A stretch of 21,369 bases of DNA from the IMG/VR virus record IMGVR_UViG_3300005527_000352, positions 1 to 21,369 of that record. The stretch is one strand, 5' to 3'. Below, piece by piece: positions 2,144 to 21,369 of this stretch (its first letter is position 1; each line of letters starts with the position of its first letter). Source of the DNA: a virus. The notes under the pieces were generated by a model, which saw only the letters and a list, made by a program, of their open reading frames with translations, was not told the DNA's origin and did no database searches. A program made the position numbers and the translations under genes.

Positions 2144-2455
2144 GTGAACGTAGAACTGGGAAAAGCTTTTGATCTAATTGAAACCTTGAATGGTATTGCA
2201 CACGACAGAGCGTGGGATACTTGGACAGCAGCAGATGAGATTTCTGATTCGGCGGAAGATGATGAGGACTGGTCTAGGGCCGAAGATATGCGGGAGGAAG
2301 CGTCTGAGGAACAAGCATCGTATTTTAGAGAAGAGTTTAGTTATCTAAGTTCTGAAGAACAAGAGCTGATTGTAAAGTGTTTGTCTTTGTCCGAGGACTT
2401 TAAAGATCAGTTTAAAACATACTATGGCGAGTCTGAGTTTGACGATGAATTCTGA
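2144..2455 (+). CDS. Acidic hypothetical protein (103 aa), GTG start
   Basis: I place the start at GTG 2144 because GAGGA at 2131-2135 sits at ribosome-binding distance from it; an upstream TTG at 2129 is open in frame but would place the Shine-Dalgarno inside the gene. The product is strongly acidic (SAEDDEDWSRAEDMREEASEEQ) and helical, ending ESEFDDEF. Such DNA-mimic-like acidity is common in early phage proteins but is not proof of function. Its end overlaps the next gene. Confidence 0.65.
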   Translation: MNVELGKAFDLIETLNGIAHDRAWDTWTAADEISDSAEDDEDWSRAEDMREEASEEQASYFREEFSYLSSEEQELIVKCLSLSEDFKDQFKTYYGESEFDDEF

Positions 2456-2633
2456 TCTGATTAAACGAATGTCCGATACTGCGAAAAGCAGAGTACCCGA
2501 AGGTCTGTCGGTTGATGCTTGGATTGATAGATATAATAAGGCCCTTGTAGAACTGGTCATTCAAGAATGCATCGATATTGTTCCTTGGGAGTATGAGGCG
2601 GAGATTAAACAACACTTTGGGGTTGAAGAATGA
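2445..2633 (+). CDS. FAELI..HFGVE family protein, copy 1 (62 aa)
   Basis: First of six small paralogues in this region. Its C-terminal half reads ALVELVIQECIDIV then IKQHFGVEE, matching the shared signature [FY]xELIVxEC ... IKxHFG[VI]E. ATG 2445 is preferred to the in-frame ATG 2424 because relatives start MN(E/S)xI and because it cuts the overlap with the preceding gene to 11 nt; neither start has a strong Shine-Dalgarno. This family is recurrent in T4-like phages, often in several copies, with no known function. Confidence 0.7.
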   Translation: MNSDLIKRMSDTAKSRVPEGLSVDAWIDRYNKALVELVIQECIDIVPWEYEAEIKQHFGVEE

Positions 2634-2731
2634 CTATATTAGTTTGGACTACTTTCTTTTTTGGTGTGGCAGTAGGAGTTCTTATATCTATGGGCATAGT
2701 TGCTTACGCTCGCTGGTCGGTGTTATCATGA
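2630..2731 (+). CDS. Membrane miniprotein (33 aa)
   Basis: ATG 2630 overlaps the previous TGA (ATGA) and its own TGA at 2729-2731 overlaps the next ATG, so the frame is locked between two coupled genes. Almost the whole product is one transmembrane helix (TILVWTTFFFGVAVGVLISM then GIVAYARW), with a positively charged residue near the C-terminal end. GGGGTTGAAGA upstream gives a weak ribosome binding site. Role unknown. Confidence 0.6.
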   Translation: MTILVWTTFFFGVAVGVLISMGIVAYARWSVLS

Positions 2732-2952
2732 ACGAACGAATTCGAGAACTTGCTCGCGAGGCAGGATTACCAACTTATAATCCAGATGGTATTCCAACTA
2801 AACTTGAAAAGTTCGCCGAACTAATTATCCAAGAATGTTGTGATCTTATTATGAAAAATCAATATAGCATGGTACCCGGATTTATGGAAAGACTGTCCGC
2901 ATATTCCGAGGTATGTATGCTGAAAGAACACTTTGGAGTTGAAAATGACTGA
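2728..2952 (+). CDS. FAELI..HFGVE family protein, copy 2 (74 aa)
   Basis: Best example of the local family: MNERIRELAREAGLP at the start, EKFAELIIQECCDLI in the middle and LKEHFGVEND at the end. ATG 2728 overlaps the stop of the membrane miniprotein. A longer in-frame opening to 2578 exists but would run through two other genes and starts with TTG, so I reject it. The conserved Cys after the (Q/E)E pair and the terminal HFGVE are the family's hallmarks. No catalytic role is known. Confidence 0.8.
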   Translation: MNERIRELAREAGLPTYNPDGIPTKLEKFAELIIQECCDLIMKNQYSMVPGFMERLSAYSEVCMLKEHFGVEND

Positions 2953-3052
2953 ACGTGAAATGCAGGCTATGTGGGCGGGTATCTTTGAAATAGGTAAGGG
3001 TATTACCTATATTCTTGCCATGATGTGCATGATTAAATATTTGTTCTTTTAA
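2945..3052 (+). CDS. Membrane miniprotein (35 aa)
   Basis: ATG 2945 overlaps the end of the preceding gene; TTGGAG at 2934-2939 lies at ribosome-binding distance. A short polar N-terminus (MTEREMQ) leads into a hydrophobic segment (ITYILAMMCMIKYLFF). Like the 2630 gene it is squeezed between two members of the FAELI family, so gene-for-gene alternation is visible here. Function unknown. Confidence 0.55.
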   Translation: MTEREMQAMWAGIFEIGKGITYILAMMCMIKYLFF

Positions 3053-3054
3053 TT

Positions 3055-3300
3055 ATGAATAATTCATTTGACGATTTGATGTATGAGGCTGGTCTTACAG
3101 TACAGGGGTGCTGGGATCAGATGGATGAATATGATCGTAAAGCTATAATTAAATTCGCCGAGCTAATTGTGCAAAAATGCGTCTCCGAAGCTGCTTTACT
3201 TGGTATGTCCAATTATGAGAATGATGATATTACCTGGGCAGCACTTACCATAGTTAAAAATATCAAATCTCGTTTCGGAGTGGATGATGAAAATAAGTAA
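3055..3300 (+). CDS. FAELI..HFGVE family protein, copy 3 (81 aa)
   Basis: Starts 2 nt after the previous stop. It contains IKFAELIVQKCVSEAA at about residues 34-49 and ends NIKSRFGVDDENK, so the family signature is kept with a Lys before the Cys and Arg for His in the final motif. The N-terminal MNNSFDDLMYEAGL matches the other copies' start. Divergence among copies is high, which argues for old duplications rather than a recent repeat. Confidence 0.75.
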   Translation: MNNSFDDLMYEAGLTVQGCWDQMDEYDRKAIIKFAELIVQKCVSEAALLGMSNYENDDITWAALTIVKNIKSRFGVDDENK

Positions 3301-3526
3301 ACCTGCAAAAGGAATCAAGGGTTTTATTATCAGAACATTCGATGATCCTAAGGACTGGTTCTTTCGTGTATATAATGAAGATCATTCATTTACCGATTAC
3401 CGAATAGAGCACTGTGATCTGGAGGTCACTATTGAATCCGAAGATGCAAATTTTTATGAACTACCAAACCAAGAAAATATTCTCGATTATTCAGAACAGG
3501 TGCTAAATGGAAGATCCCTTTATTGA
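3284..3526 (+). CDS. Conserved phage protein, FRVYNxDxxFTDY type (80 aa)
   Basis: Begins ATGATG at 3284 (ATG 3287 is equally possible) inside the end of the previous gene. The core KGFIIRTFDDPKDWFFRVY followed by FTDYRIEHCDLEVTI resembles a small, mostly beta protein widespread in T4-like phages of aquatic bacteria, always annotated as hypothetical. It interrupts the run of FAELI paralogues. No active-site residues can be named. Confidence 0.75.
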   Translation: MMKISKPAKGIKGFIIRTFDDPKDWFFRVYNEDHSFTDYRIEHCDLEVTIESEDANFYELPNQENILDYSEQVLNGRSLY

Positions 3527-3698
3527 CATTGCTAAAGAAGCACATTATAATATTTACGAAAGTCCGTTGTGGAAAAATACTGGTCGAAGATTTGCCGAAT
3601 CTATAGTTAAACAATGTCTTGACATTATAGATAGCAGTGAAGGTGATATAGACTTTGCAGTTTTTCAAATAAAAAAGAGATTTTTCAATGAAAATTAA
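3507..3698 (+). CDS. FAELI..HFGVE family protein, copy 4 (63 aa)
   Basis: Overlaps the preceding gene by 20 nt. It carries RRFAESIVKQCLDIID and ends QIKKRFFNEN, so the terminal HFGVE has degenerated to RFFNE. A perfect sigma70 promoter (3523-3551) is embedded in its first codons, which may constrain its sequence (residues PFIDIAKEAHYNIY). It is one of the shorter and more divergent members of the array. Confidence 0.7.
   Translation: MEDPFIDIAKEAHYNIYESPLWKNTGRRFAESIVKQCLDIIDSSEGDIDFAVFQIKKRFFNEN
3523..3551 (+). promoter_or_regulatory. Perfect sigma70-type promoter inside a gene
   Basis: TTGACA 3523-3528, 17-bp spacer, TATAAT 3546-3551, all inside the coding sequence 3507-3698. A 12/12 match at ideal spacing is unlikely to be chance, even in AT-rich DNA. 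It would give transcripts for the genes from 3688 onward independently of the 1338 promoter. Confidence 0.7.
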
Positions 3699-4179
3699 TA
3701 AAGAAGACTTAGCAGAACTACTTCGTAATGCTACGTTAGACAAAACTAACGTACAAAAGGTATTTGATGCTGTACGAAGCGGAGAAATGGACTTCGATGA
3801 CTTTTACTACGGTTGGTTAGACAATTTTCGTAATGAGGAATGGGAAAAGGCCTCATCCTTTAACGAATGGAAGGATGCTGTCATTGAACAAACGATGACA
3901 ACGCACATTTATACCGAAGAACACGAGTATGATCCTCGTAAAGCATTGAATGATGTCATCACTTGGCATTGCAAAGTTGCTTTAGATCCAAAAGTTAGTA
4001 GCGATGCCGCTGCTATAGTTGAGGAATGTGCAAAAATTTGTATGAGTCAAGCAGATCGTAAAAATATTAGAAAACGTTTCGGTCTTCCTGTCGAAACTAA
4101 CATTCAATATCCTGGACCAGACCCCCATGGATCAATAACTAGTCAATACACCAGACAATATAATCTTCCGAAGGATTAA
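3688..4179 (+). CDS. FAELI-family protein, long version (163 aa)
   Basis: Overlaps the previous gene by 11 nt. Residues from about 110 contain AAAIVEECAKICM and then NIRKRFGLP, the family signature, but the N-terminal half is much longer than in the other copies (an acidic region DFDDFYYGWLDNF, then a helical segment) and there is an added C-terminal tail rich in Pro, Gly and Gln. It may be a fusion of a family unit with another small phage domain. Function unknown. Confidence 0.7.
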   Translation: MKINKEDLAELLRNATLDKTNVQKVFDAVRSGEMDFDDFYYGWLDNFRNEEWEKASSFNEWKDAVIEQTMTTHIYTEEHEYDPRKALNDVITWHCKVALDPKVSSDAAAIVEECAKICMSQADRKNIRKRFGLPVETNIQYPGPDPHGSITSQYTRQYNLPKD

Positions 4180-4180
4180 A

Positions 4181-4438
4181 ATGCACGAGAAAATTAAAGA
4201 ACTAGCTAATAAAGCAGGTTTTGTGATGTGGGAAGAGGATGAGAAGCCATGGAACGATGATGTCATTGATTGGTCTTCAACTTATGACAAAGAACTTCAA
4301 GAATATACTAAATTAGTTGTGTTGGAGTGTGCAAAAGTTGCCAGACAAGACATTTTATCTCGAAGCGGTATGAATCAGCAGTATGACGGTAGAGTAATTA
4401 CCGAGGACGCAATTAAAAAACATTTTGGTATAGAATAA
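4181..4438 (+). CDS. FAELI..HFGVE family protein, copy 6 (85 aa)
   Basis: Starts one base after the previous stop. MHEKIKELANKAGFVMW at the N-terminus parallels MNERIRELAREAGLP of copy 2; YTKLVVLECAKVAR and IKKHFGIE complete the signature. It has an acidic, Trp-rich insert (WEEDEKPWNDDVIDW) before the core. It is the last member of the array. Confidence 0.75.
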   Translation: MHEKIKELANKAGFVMWEEDEKPWNDDVIDWSSTYDKELQEYTKLVVLECAKVARQDILSRSGMNQQYDGRVITEDAIKKHFGIE

Positions 4439-4439
4439 T

Positions 4440-4808
4440 ATGAGCTACTGTAGATTTTCTTCAGATAATTTTAGAAGTGACGTGTATGTTTACTATGGTG
4501 ATCTTGGATATACTTGCCATGTTGCATCTAGAAAAATTTCTAATATAGATGAATGTCCCGAGATTAGTATTTCTCTTAGTTTAGAGGACAATCAAAAGTT
4601 TATAGAAAGATATAGACAACGGCAGGATTGGATGGAGAATTATGCTAGTCGTATTCCCATTGAACATGAACTTGCCGGCACAACCTTTACAACAGATACC
4701 CCGGATGAGATGGTAGAAGAACTAATTTATTTGCGTGAGCAAGGATTTCATGTGCCACAGAATGCAATAGATATGTTAACGTTACTTGAGGAAAAAAATA
4801 ATGTCTGA
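4440..4808 (+). CDS. Conserved phage protein, MSYCRFSSDN type (122 aa)
   Basis: The start MSYCRFSSDNFRSDVYVYYG followed by a YTCHVASRK-like strand is a signature seen in many unrelated tailed phages. The middle (FIERYRQRQDWMENY) is helical, and the C-terminal third contains DTPDEMVEELIYLREQGFHVP. Homologues are always listed as hypothetical. The start is one base after the previous stop and the gene overlaps the next by 8 nt. Confidence 0.8.
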   Translation: MSYCRFSSDNFRSDVYVYYGDLGYTCHVASRKISNIDECPEISISLSLEDNQKFIERYRQRQDWMENYASRIPIEHELAGTTFTTDTPDEMVEELIYLREQGFHVPQNAIDMLTLLEEKNNV

Positions 4809-5875: not shown

Positions 5876-6592
5876 ATGTATTTTATATTTGACGTGGATG
5901 GCACTCTGACACCAAGCAGAGGAAAAATAGATTCTGACTTCGAGAAATACTTCAAAAAATTTATATCAAAACACCCGGTGGCGCTTGTCACCGGGTCTGA
6001 TCTAGGAAAAACAGTCGAACAGCTTGGTCAAGACATTTTAAAGGCTGTTGATTATTCTTTTAATTGTTCCGGTAATGCAATTTACCAAGGAACTACTCTA
6101 ATAAAAAATTCTGTTTGGACTGCTCCTGAGGATCTTCGAGGATATCTTTTCGAAGTTTTATCAAATTCAAAATATAGATTTAGATATGGCAATCATCTCG
6201 AACAACGTATAGGGATGTTAAATTTTTCCGTGGTTGGCAGAGATGCTGTTGGTGTTCAAAGAAAACATTATTATGAATGGGATCTAAAAACAAAAGAACG
6301 ACAAAAATTATGTGAATACATAAACAATTATTGGAAAGATATTCATGCTGTTGTCGGAGGTGAGACAGGTATAGATATTTTCGAAAGAGGTAGGGATAAA
6401 TCTCAAATCCTAGAGTTTATTCATACGCAAGAAGTGCATTTCTTCGGTGATAGGATGGATCCAGTTGGCAATGATTGGCCTTTGGGTAAAAGAATACTTG
6501 ACGAAAAACGAGGAAAAATATATCATGTTAAAGATTGGAAAGATACCTGGTCTCGATTAAAGTTTTTTGAGGAGATGGGTTATATTAATTAA
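5876..6592 (+). CDS. Phosphomannomutase, eukaryotic (PMM/HAD) type
   Basis: Converts mannose-6-phosphate to mannose-1-phosphate, the precursor of GDP-mannose. The 238 aa protein matches the HAD-fold PMM1/PMM2 family and not the bacterial ManB type: the nucleophile motif FDVDGTLTPSR (D6, D8), VTGSD (38-42), the cap signature RIGMLNFSVVGR (111-122), GGETGIDIF (161-169), K175, and the metal-site motif GDRMDPVGND (191-200). Human PMM2 is about 246 aa, so the length is full. It starts 12 nt after the previous gene and belongs with the Nudix and glycosyltransferase genes beside it. Related HAD sugar phosphatases are the alternative, but the GMLN and PxGND motifs favour PMM. Confidence 0.88.
   Translation: MYFIFDVDGTLTPSRGKIDSDFEKYFKKFISKHPVALVTGSDLGKTVEQLGQDILKAVDYSFNCSGNAIYQGTTLIKNSVWTAPEDLRGYLFEVLSNSKYRFRYGNHLEQRIGMLNFSVVGRDAVGVQRKHYYEWDLKTKERQKLCEYINNYWKDIHAVVGGETGIDIFERGRDKSQILEFIHTQEVHFFGDRMDPVGNDWPLGKRILDEKRGKIYHVKDWKDTWSRLKFFEEMGYIN
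6498..6526 (+). promoter_or_regulatory. Sigma70-like promoter candidate inside PMM gene
   Basis: TTGACG 6498-6503, 17-bp spacer, TATCAT 6521-6526: 10 of 12 consensus bases. It lies in the 3' end of the phosphomannomutase gene, about 80 nt before the next ATG (6604). Weaker than the five perfect examples in the window and possibly chance. Confidence 0.3.
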
Positions 6593-20584: not shown

Positions 20585-20653
20585 TAGATATTTCGTCATA
20601 ATATAATTATGGCGCTATAATTCATATAGGAGAAAAATATGACGAAATATCTA
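20585..20653 (+). promoter_or_regulatory. 16-bp inverted repeat hiding the pstS start codon
   Basis: The arms 20585-20600 and 20638-20653 are perfect complements (TAGATATTTCGTCATA and its reverse complement) around a 37-nt loop. The right arm includes the pstS ATG and next four codons; the Shine-Dalgarno AGGAG (20628-20632) lies in the loop. RNA starting upstream of 20585 would fold and mask the start; RNA starting after about 20610 lacks the left arm. Confidence 0.75.
20602..20609 (+). promoter_or_regulatory. pstS promoter -10 / late-like box
   Basis: TATAAT at 20602-20607 lies within the loop of the inverted repeat, about 20 bp after the last Pho-box-like unit, and has no good -35, as expected for an activator-dependent promoter. 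The same bases read TATAATTA, 7 of 8 with the T4 late octamer. A second TATAAT is at 20616-20621. Confidence 0.5.
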
Positions 20654-21369
20654 ATGGCATTACTTTTAGCAGCATCATCTGTAGTATCAGCAGCAGAATT
20701 TACCGGAGCAGGTGCAACATTCCCATTCCCAATTTATGCTAAGTGGGCAGAGGCATATAAAGCTCAAACTGGCATTGGTCTAAATTATCAATCAATCGGC
20801 TCGGGCGGTGGCATTCGTCAAATCAAAGCAAAGACAGTTGATTTTGGCGCAAGTGATATGCCATTGAAGAAAGAAGAATTAGACAAAGAGGGTCTTGTTC
20901 AGTTTCCAGCAATCATTGGTGGTGTTGTACCAGTTTATAATCTTGATGGTATCGATGCTGGTAAACTAAAGTTGACACCCGATGTTATCGCAAACATTCA
21001 TCTAGGTAAAATTACTAAATGGAATGATAAAGCAATTGTAGAATTAAATCCTGGTGTAAACTTACCTGCAATGAATATCACAGTTGTACATCGTGCTGAC
21101 GGTTCGGGTACAACATTCATCTGGACCAATTTCTTAGGCAAAGCCAACGCAGACTTTCAAAAGACTGTAGGTGAAGGCACAGCAGTTAAATGGCCAACGG
21201 GTGTAGGTGGTAAAGGTAATGAAGGTGTTGCCGCACAGGTTCAGCGTATCAAAGGAGCATTTGGTTATGTCGAATACGCATACGCAAAACGCAACAAGAT
21301 CCCTTACGCAGCATTGAAGAATCGTGATGGTAACTTTGTATTGCCTGATGATAGCACATTCAAAGCAGC
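20639..21369 (+). CDS. pstS: Phosphate ABC transporter substrate-binding protein PstS (5' part)
   Basis: Periplasmic phosphate-binding protein that feeds the host PstCAB transporter; many phages of phosphate-poor waters carry it. AGGAG at 20628-20632 precedes ATG 20639. A Sec signal peptide is clear (TKYLMALLLAASSVVSAAEF, cleavage after VSA). Mature motifs: GAGATFPFPIYAKWA, IGSGGGIRQI, VDFGASDMPL and the phosphate-site HRADGSGTTFIWTNFL. 243 codons are seen before the window ends; the C-terminal third is missing. It has its own control region rather than relying on the sugar operon upstream. Confidence 0.95.
   Translation, partial: MTKYLMALLLAASSVVSAAEFTGAGATFPFPIYAKWAEAYKAQTGIGLNYQSIGSGGGIRQIKAKTVDFGASDMPLKKEELDKEGLVQFPAIIGGVVPVYNLDGIDAGKLKLTPDVIANIHLGKITKWNDKAIVELNPGVNLPAMNITVVHRADGSGTTFIWTNFLGKANADFQKTVGEGTAVKWPTGVGGKGNEGVAAQVQRIKGAFGYVEYAYAKRNKIPYAALKNRDGNFVLPDDSTFKA

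Follow-up and report, generated by a model that had tools for sequence, protein, structure and literature searches.

The viral DNA analysed here, a stretch of 21,369 nucleotides (nt) from IMG/VR record IMGVR_UViG_3300005527_000352 (the window, in its whole length), carries six small genes at 2445–4438, named c1 to c6 in order. They belong to a family of short proteins in which two variable cassettes, V1 and V2, are set between three conserved blocks, here called the start joint (J1), the core joint (J2) and the end joint (J3). Among the members of this family the two cassettes have been re-paired so often that one barely predicts the other, and of this we are very nearly certain. The features of the locus are given below, where E-values and core joints were obtained with a family profile built without the window, end joints were read from the sequence, and lengths are in amino acids (aa) of the open reading frames (ORFs).

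2445–2633, + strand: c1, family member, 62 aa (E 2.1e-9)
2541–2570, + strand: core joint of c1 (ALVELVIQEC), diverged
2619–2632, + strand: end joint of c1, GGGG and then the ATGA start of the ORF at 2630, which overlaps the c1 stop
2630–2731, + strand: hydrophobic mini-ORF between c1 and c2, 33 aa (hydrophobicity judged by eye); its stop and the c2 start overlap in an ATGA
2728–2952, + strand: c2, canonical family member, 74 aa (E 7.6e-22)
2809–2838, + strand: core joint of c2 (KFAELIIQEC; AAGTTCGCCGAACTAATTATCCAAGAATGT)
2935–2948, + strand: end joint of c2, GGAG at 2935–2938 and, at 2945, an ATGA that opens the following ORF and overlaps the c2 reading frame
2945–3052, + strand: hydrophobic mini-ORF between c2 and c3, 35 aa (hydrophobicity judged by eye)
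3055–3300, + strand: c3, family member, 81 aa (E 1.6e-12)
3151–3180, + strand: core joint of c3 (KFAELIVQKC; AAATTCGCCGAGCTAATTGTGCAAAAATGC)
3277–3287, + strand: end joint of c3, GGAG at 3277–3280 upstream of an overlapping ATG at 3284
3284–3526, + strand: non-family ORF between c3 and c4, 80 aa, scoreless with the family profile and without a PHROG match
3507–3698, + strand: c4, diverged member, 63 aa, with a degenerate end joint (KKRFFNEN) (E 8.9e-7)
3688–4179, + strand: c5, 163 aa (E 1.5e-4)
4181–4438, + strand: c6, family member, 85 aa (E 8.5e-14)

A family of three joints and two cassettes

The profile was assembled from 553 relatives with the window and all contigs overlapping it excluded (Z=1000, filters off); an earlier profile had contained the window's own genes, and the search was repeated without them. 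All six genes were detected, with E-values from 7.6e-22 to 1.5e-4, whereas 12 reversed controls reached 6.4 at best; the likeness of the six is therefore above chance, c5 being the weakest case. The neighbouring genes were all scoreless. A first-pass annotation of this DNA had described six related genes interleaved with membrane miniproteins, one gene being fused to a long N-terminal half and another having a decayed end, and each element of that description was recovered. The fused gene is c5, whose N-terminal ~100 aa are unrelated to the family; only its C-terminal half, followed by a C-terminal tail, is family-like, with a weak core and end joint (AAIVEECAKIC..IRKRFGL), and its relatives are confined to one locus, on a near-identical contig. 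The decayed end is that of c4, and the miniproteins correspond to the two hydrophobic mini-ORFs, neither of which was matched in a Pfam search.

The consensus layout of the family is J1 (MNERI[RK]ELAEQAG), cassette V1, J2 (KFAELIVREC), cassette V2 and J3 (IKEHFGVE), with cassettes of about 15–40 aa and proteins of 60–90 residues. The N-terminal block MNERIxELAxQAG, the third conserved block, is clear in c2 and partial in c1, c3 and c6. At the DNA level the joints read ATG AAC GAA CGA ATT .. GAA CTT (J1, MNERIxEL), AAG TTC GCC GAG TTG ATT GTG CGG GAA TGT (J2, KFAELIVREC) and CAT TTC GGA GTT GAA GAA TGA (J3, HFGVEE), and the core Cys was conserved at 92% among the first 296 members.

AlphaFold2 models of c2 (mean predicted local distance difference test score, pLDDT, 81.0; helices 3–11, 24–47 and 52–69) and c3 (mean pLDDT 82.9; helices 4–12, 25–52 and 59–74) both consist of three helices, the long middle one bearing the core, while their cassettes are unrelated. 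The conserved blocks are the best-predicted parts of both models. Unrelated folds, the outcome that would have spoken against the grouping proposed in the annotation, were not seen, and the predictions support a real three-helix fold common to the members. In the BFVD structure database the best matches had E-values of 1.7e-3 and 1.0e-2; none carried a function, and those with a name were uncultured Caudovirales phages. A sequence search of solved structures retrieved fragments of PARP14 (best E 0.055), which were rejected as not believable for a 20-residue helix. Fusions of family members are few, and none is to a known domain.

Re-pairing of the cassettes and its borders

One member used as a query against IMG/VR returned at least 494 confirmed relatives in 598 stretches, and three further queries returned 424, 12 and 148; at most 80 relatives per query were used. 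The resulting dataset comprised 846 member domains from 236 sources, 653 of them unique by DNA. From these, 96 were left out as incomplete or as having a core score under 5 of 9, leaving 557 complete enough for analysis.

Among the 557 members, V1 was shared at ≥70% identity by 551 pairs, of which 516 had V2 below 35%, 28 had V2 at ≥70% and 7 lay between. The reverse comparison gave 482 pairs sharing V2 at ≥70%, with V1 below 35% in 445, at ≥70% in 28 and between in 9. As a control, 2,669 other ORFs of 50–110 aa from the same loci were split at mid-length, and there the other half fell below 35% in only 1 of 428 and 12 of 451 pairs. The sample is biased toward the query cassettes, a bias corrected only partly by a query-removed set, from which members that sat at the retrieval position or resembled the query genes were dropped; its 421 members still gave 110 V1-only, 121 V2-only and 9 both. 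The two query members found for this exclusion did not include c2, and genes at locus position 6001 were dropped. After clustering at 60%, all multi-member families had at least two partners (75/75 for V1 and 97/97 for V2); these figures come from a set in which pairs similar in both cassettes had been thinned out, and the pair counts are therefore the fairer ones.

The window offers examples of its own. The V1 cassette of c2 (LPTYNPDGIPTKLEK) occurs unchanged at three other loci (L005, L008 and L010), each time with a different V2, and the V2 of c2 has no close match among the family cassettes compared. Judged by its relatives, c3 appears to be a chimera, its V1 being 81% like that of L151, L154, L158 and L161 and its V2 48% like that of L162, L024, L171 and L178; none of these relatives combines the two. 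The V1 of c1 is 57% like L054:4152 and also resembles L040 (by eye), the V1 of c6 is 48% like L105:10399, and neither c1 nor c6 has a close relative for V2; the cassettes of c4 are without a close match among those compared.

Members resembled each other no more within a locus than between loci, with mean identities of 0.163 and 0.163 for V1 and of 0.128 and 0.133 for V2, respectively. Sharing at 70% within a locus was likewise close to expectation (6 versus 3.5 pairs for V1, 3 versus 3.1 for V2). This indicates that arrays were drawn from a common cassette pool, and the local expansion proposed in the annotation, in the sense of recent tandem duplication, was rejected on these grounds. Its broader suggestion of a diversification process is borne out in the form of V1/V2 re-pairing; the exchange of two variable halves, which is the main feature of the family, had not been described in it.

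The borders of the exchanged stretches were examined in 179 V1-sharing pairs with DNA identity of ≥0.85 and in 255 V2-sharing pairs. In the former, DNA identity stayed at chance level as far as the ATG, rose to about 0.9 inside and fell back to chance immediately behind the Cys codon; in the latter it rose from chance only at the core, remained high to the stop and was at chance beyond it. For roughly the first three or four codons of the core, third positions were no closer in V1-sharing pairs than in unrelated ones, and in V2-sharing pairs they were linked from the fourth codon (Leu) on, which places the boundary between V1 and V2 at KFAEL. Exchanged stretches thus start and stop at the joints. 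Within V1-sharing pairs codon positions 1 and 2 were about 0.97 identical and third positions about 0.77, from which we conclude that the cassettes are under constraint.

A reciprocal case was found in two adjacent members lying in the same context on different contigs (L104 and L099), with flanks 84% and 79% identical. Their V1 cassettes match in place (0.87 and 0.92), whereas their V2 cassettes match crosswise (0.83 and 0.90) rather than in place (0.48 and 0.54). This gene pair has thus exchanged its V2 cassettes reciprocally, and it has diverged since.

Very fast loop divergence of ordinary homologues, with exchange not involved, was considered as a source of the unrelated halves. Fast divergence is indeed usual in the loops of small helical proteins, and at 60% clustering singletons make up most of the cassette families (285 of 364 for V1 and 264 of 364 for V2; Chao1 estimates of the pool at the same level are about 1,200 V1 and 1,000 V2). 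It cannot, however, explain why the same V1 is found with many V2 and the reverse, nor the reciprocal swap between L104 and L099. Unless those pair counts and that swap are artefacts, they refute this explanation, to which we give practically no credence.

One such artefact would be an assembly chimera, in which assemblers join unrelated reads at the 27–30-bp core so that re-pairing arises in silico. The joint is short, a sample holds many repeats of it and nearly all members are metagenome-assembled. Such joining should nonetheless leave identical cassettes behind, whereas shared cassette DNA was near-identical (≥98%) in only 10/516 V1 and 13/445 V2 swap pairs, with a median identity of the shared DNA of 81% and 87%, respectively. 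The flanks of swap pairs were mostly dissimilar (397/516 for V1 and 286/445 for V2), the same gene was recovered from separate samples (L018, L019 and L020), and the swap between L104 and L099 has diverged since it took place. We therefore hold chimeric assembly to be highly improbable as the origin of the re-pairing.

The joints as DNA and as a ribosome-binding site

Codon usage in the joints was compared with that in the cassettes of the same genes. In the core joint Lys was AAG in 84% of cases (34% in cassettes), Phe TTC in 71% (22%), Ala GCC in 78% (20%), Glu GAG in 83% (24%) and Leu TTG in 81% (25%); in the start joint Asn was AAC in 84% (29%) and Arg CGA in 87% (17%). The core retains G/C-ending codons where the third positions of the cassettes at the locus are 31% G+C. 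Third-position identity in V1-sharing pairs was 0.90 in J1, 0.77 in J2 and 0.66 in V1. Exact 17-mers of J2 lay inside family genes in all 266 of 266 occurrences. Conservation of the joints thus extends to the DNA and is not confined to the protein. The core and end joints both hold TTCG(CC)GAGTTGA, in the same direction and flanking V2, a likeness that may have arisen by chance or may go back to a common origin.

The end joint also has a role in translation. The Gly codon of HFGV was GGA in 446 of 478 members, compared with 495 of 1,926 Gly codons elsewhere. In 340 of the 478 members the stop and the start of the following ORF share an ATGA, the usual distance to the Gly codon being 11 nt (330). 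GGA was used in 383 of 399 members with a start 8–17 nt away and in 57 of 70 without a near start (p 6e-5). J3 hence supplies the next gene with its Shine-Dalgarno sequence. In the 388 cases of an ATGA overlap, the gene that follows belonged to the family 100 times and was an ORF of another kind 288 times; with the ribosome-binding site and the overlap in place, nearly any gene starting with ATGA can come next and the chain will still be translated. Embedded ribosome-binding sites and ATGA overlaps are common in compact phage genomes. What is unusual in J3 is that the signal coincides with a fixed protein motif and with an exchange point. The annotation had taken the invariant terminal motif as a hint of a structural or binding role. 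At least in part, however, the motif is a nucleic-acid signal, and the embedded ribosome-binding site accounts for a C-terminal protein motif being so invariant. Part of the constraint does act on the protein, as the Phe of the motif may be TTC or TTT. The case cautions against reading invariant terminal motifs as binding sites.

These features raise the question of whether it is for translation or RNA control that the joints are conserved as DNA, recombination there being a by-product. Besides the ribosome-binding site that J3 represents in most members, Asn2 and a second codon starting with A suit the ATGA overlap, and RNA pairing between start and core joints, as predicted for 150 members, shows a small excess (1.80 pairs versus 0.60 expected from shifted controls). 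J2, on the other hand, lies in the middle of the gene, far from gene starts, and yet has the strongest codon bias; we know of no internal gene at J2. On balance we consider it unlikely, with some chance left to it, that translation or RNA control is what the joints are conserved for.

Routes of exchange, known systems and distribution

Our preferred reading, which we regard as quite probable, is that the family forms a combinatorial repertoire of accessory proteins, which homology-driven exchange reshapes at short joints that are themselves coding. Recombination between homologous or homeologous joints of 15–35 bp would swap V1 or V2, during co-infection or between members of an array, by means of the phage recombination machinery (UvsX/RecA-type). 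The conserved helices would act as a common scaffold, and V1 and V2 would each lend a variable contact surface to an accessory protein acting on host or rival-phage targets, so that re-pairing would give new specificities with fold and reading frame kept, and arrays would be samples from a common cassette pool. That the exchange itself is homologous seems likely to us. We offer tentatively the view that the product serves as an accessory effector and that two of its surfaces are variable; the annotation's idea of diversification against varying host targets is a reasonable guess. It is possible, if somewhat doubtful, that freshwater phages, many of them T4-type, draw on an open pool of perhaps 1,000 or more V1 and V2 cassettes, whose joints are both scaffold and recombination code and whose products are retargetable effectors. 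Under such a code, which we would advance with some reserve, the joints would be identical in DNA as homology for recombination, and the ribosome-binding site in the last joint would keep the downstream gene translated.

Recombination genes were sought in 30 large contigs (105–374 kb) selected for holding a family member. A RecA/UvsX match was found in 19 of the 30, a tyrosine integrase in none and a serine recombinase above the cut-off in none (one match lay below it), a circumstance that favours a homology-driven route. De Paepe et al. report phage mosaics to arise mainly by mechanisms that are homology-driven and tolerant of divergence, for Rad52-like recombinases and temperate phages; by analogy this supports, without proving, a homologous route in T4-type phages.

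Shufflons, invertible tail-fibre segments and integron cassettes are swapped at conserved sites by a site-specific recombinase. The joints could likewise be the sites of a dedicated enzyme, being conserved as DNA and coinciding with the exchange points, and a host-encoded or other enzyme could possibly act on them. The family differs in that the 30 contigs hold no such recombinase above the cut-off. Both orientations were not found: 296 of 296 members (81 sources) lay on the match strand, and no exact J2 occurred on the reverse strand in the 236 sources. Inversion is ruled against by the strand that members share within each source. The joints, moreover, encode conserved helices, and the three differ from one another. 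We accordingly see only a slim chance for site-specific recombination.

The same 30 contigs bear on the subunit set suggested in the annotation, and on a fixed set in particular, in which the members would be virion or replication subunits assembling into a hetero-oligomer in each phage. Several different members within one transcription unit and on a common scaffold would suit this arrangement. Copy number, however, ranged from 1 to 17 without a fixed set, and many neighbours are of other kinds, as the ORFs following an ATGA overlap indicate, which makes it very unlikely.

Several observations weigh against the combinatorial reading and the homologous route. No exchange event was caught happening, and all sequences except one are metagenome assemblies. 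Canonical joints are retained by just two of the window's members, c2 and c3, those of c1, c4, c5 and c6 having drifted. The third positions of J2 in V2-sharing pairs (0.75) are no higher than those of V2 (0.75), although unrelated pairs keep J2 at the same level, and conservation of the joints could serve another DNA or RNA role, to which the weak RNA pairing may point. A RecA/UvsX match was missing from 11 of the 30 large contigs and a RecT-type annealing protein from all 30, these contigs possibly being fragments. Foldseek retrieved no fold match from the PDB (best E 1.3), leaving the helix positions as the structural support for the contact-surface idea.

Comparison with known systems yields partial likenesses. 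PeSLs, the mobile regulatory cassettes of T4-type phages, which are said to go back to Arbiol in 2010 and Comeau in 2014, are reportedly intergenic elements of a promoter and a stem-loop that move whole genes; the joints of the present family are coding and move parts of genes, as the intragenic J2 17-mers attest. Diversity-generating retroelements produce adenine-directed variation, unlike the family cassettes, which differ in length and in their whole sequence. HsdS proteins, the specificity subunits of type I restriction enzymes, are several hundred residues long and have their target recognition domains (TRDs) exchanged by recombination in conserved regions (CRs). As in the present family, two variable domains lie between conserved helical regions, and re-pairing gives new specificity, as is proposed here; HsdS, however, is a DNA-binding protein that acts as part of an enzyme complex, whereas the present proteins have 60–90 residues and occur in many copies per phage. 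The layout TRD1-CR1-TRD2-CR2, given in a passage of PMC12707154, is matched as an analogy of layout only, there being no sequence or PDB fold match between HsdS and the family.

In Smug et al. 2023 (PMC10684548), fragments common to otherwise unrelated phage proteins are described, with receptor-binding proteins, endolysins and replication proteins as cases and with a sequence-based definition requiring a shared fragment of ≥50 aa. The 516 and 445 swap pairs are likewise high-identity fragments shared by otherwise unrelated proteins; V1 and V2, being shorter than 50 aa, fall outside that definition. The family thus represents phage domain mosaicism on a scale smaller than that size limit, and no three-joint family appears in the abstract or sections 13–14 of the paper. 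Passages of PMC3029335 propose short conserved boundary sequences as sites of homologous recombination between phage modules and state that these are not identifiable at most boundaries, and relaxed homologous recombination is treated in PMC3945230. A short conserved sequence does lie at the exchange points here, and the difference from the boundary-sequence mosaicism described in those passages is that one joint is intragenic and all joints are codon-conserved. Hundreds of natural exchanges at defined, DNA-conserved joints within genes make the question of boundary recombination directly testable. Combinatorial protein diversity is contained in about 75 residues, invisible to screens for 50-aa fragments, and the conserved cassettes now listed have targets that ordinary binding and toxicity screens might identify.

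The profile search across phages and the copy-number count that the annotation had called for revealed a large family, with more than one copy in 28 of the 30 large contigs. A T4-type major capsid gene was detected in 20 of these contigs, strongly in 19. The densest array (L055) holds 15 members within 12.3 kb. Searches of Pfam and PHROGs with 51 members gave no family common to more than two of them (best E 0.0014 and 0.016), NCBIfam searched with six proteins gave a best E of 0.036, below significance, and the best match of the window genes to named families was that of c3 (Pfam Uteroglobin, 0.0023; phrog_5443, 0.0054). Among GenBank phages, tblastn found no matches with c2 (E limit 0.01) or with a member from L023 (E limit 0.1), and one metagenomic spring phage with a member from L064 (E 0.02); matches of a member from L163 to 13 Bacillus phages (E 2) were rejected as chance level. 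The sole convincing GenBank phage relative is an unannotated ORF in this spring-water phage genome (MW202520.1; L238:1501–1749), which has a family-like start (MNDRIKELAEQAG, RFAEL) and continues with a different C-terminal half (VRQDERKSCANI...), as if J1-V1-J2 had met another family. Bacterial genomes yielded nine loci, eight of them on contigs below 9 kb, which are probably stray viral contigs, and no description of the family was found in open-licence papers. The family is large, widespread in uncultured phages, unnamed and almost absent from GenBank phages.

Directly after the array in the window, the gene at 4440–4808 matches phrog_13573 (E 1e-15) and, weakly and below the cut-off, Pfam mSLOG (E 0.017). 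At the far end, 20639–21369 holds a gene for a PstS-like phosphate-binding protein, judged by eye from its translation, that runs off the end of the contig.

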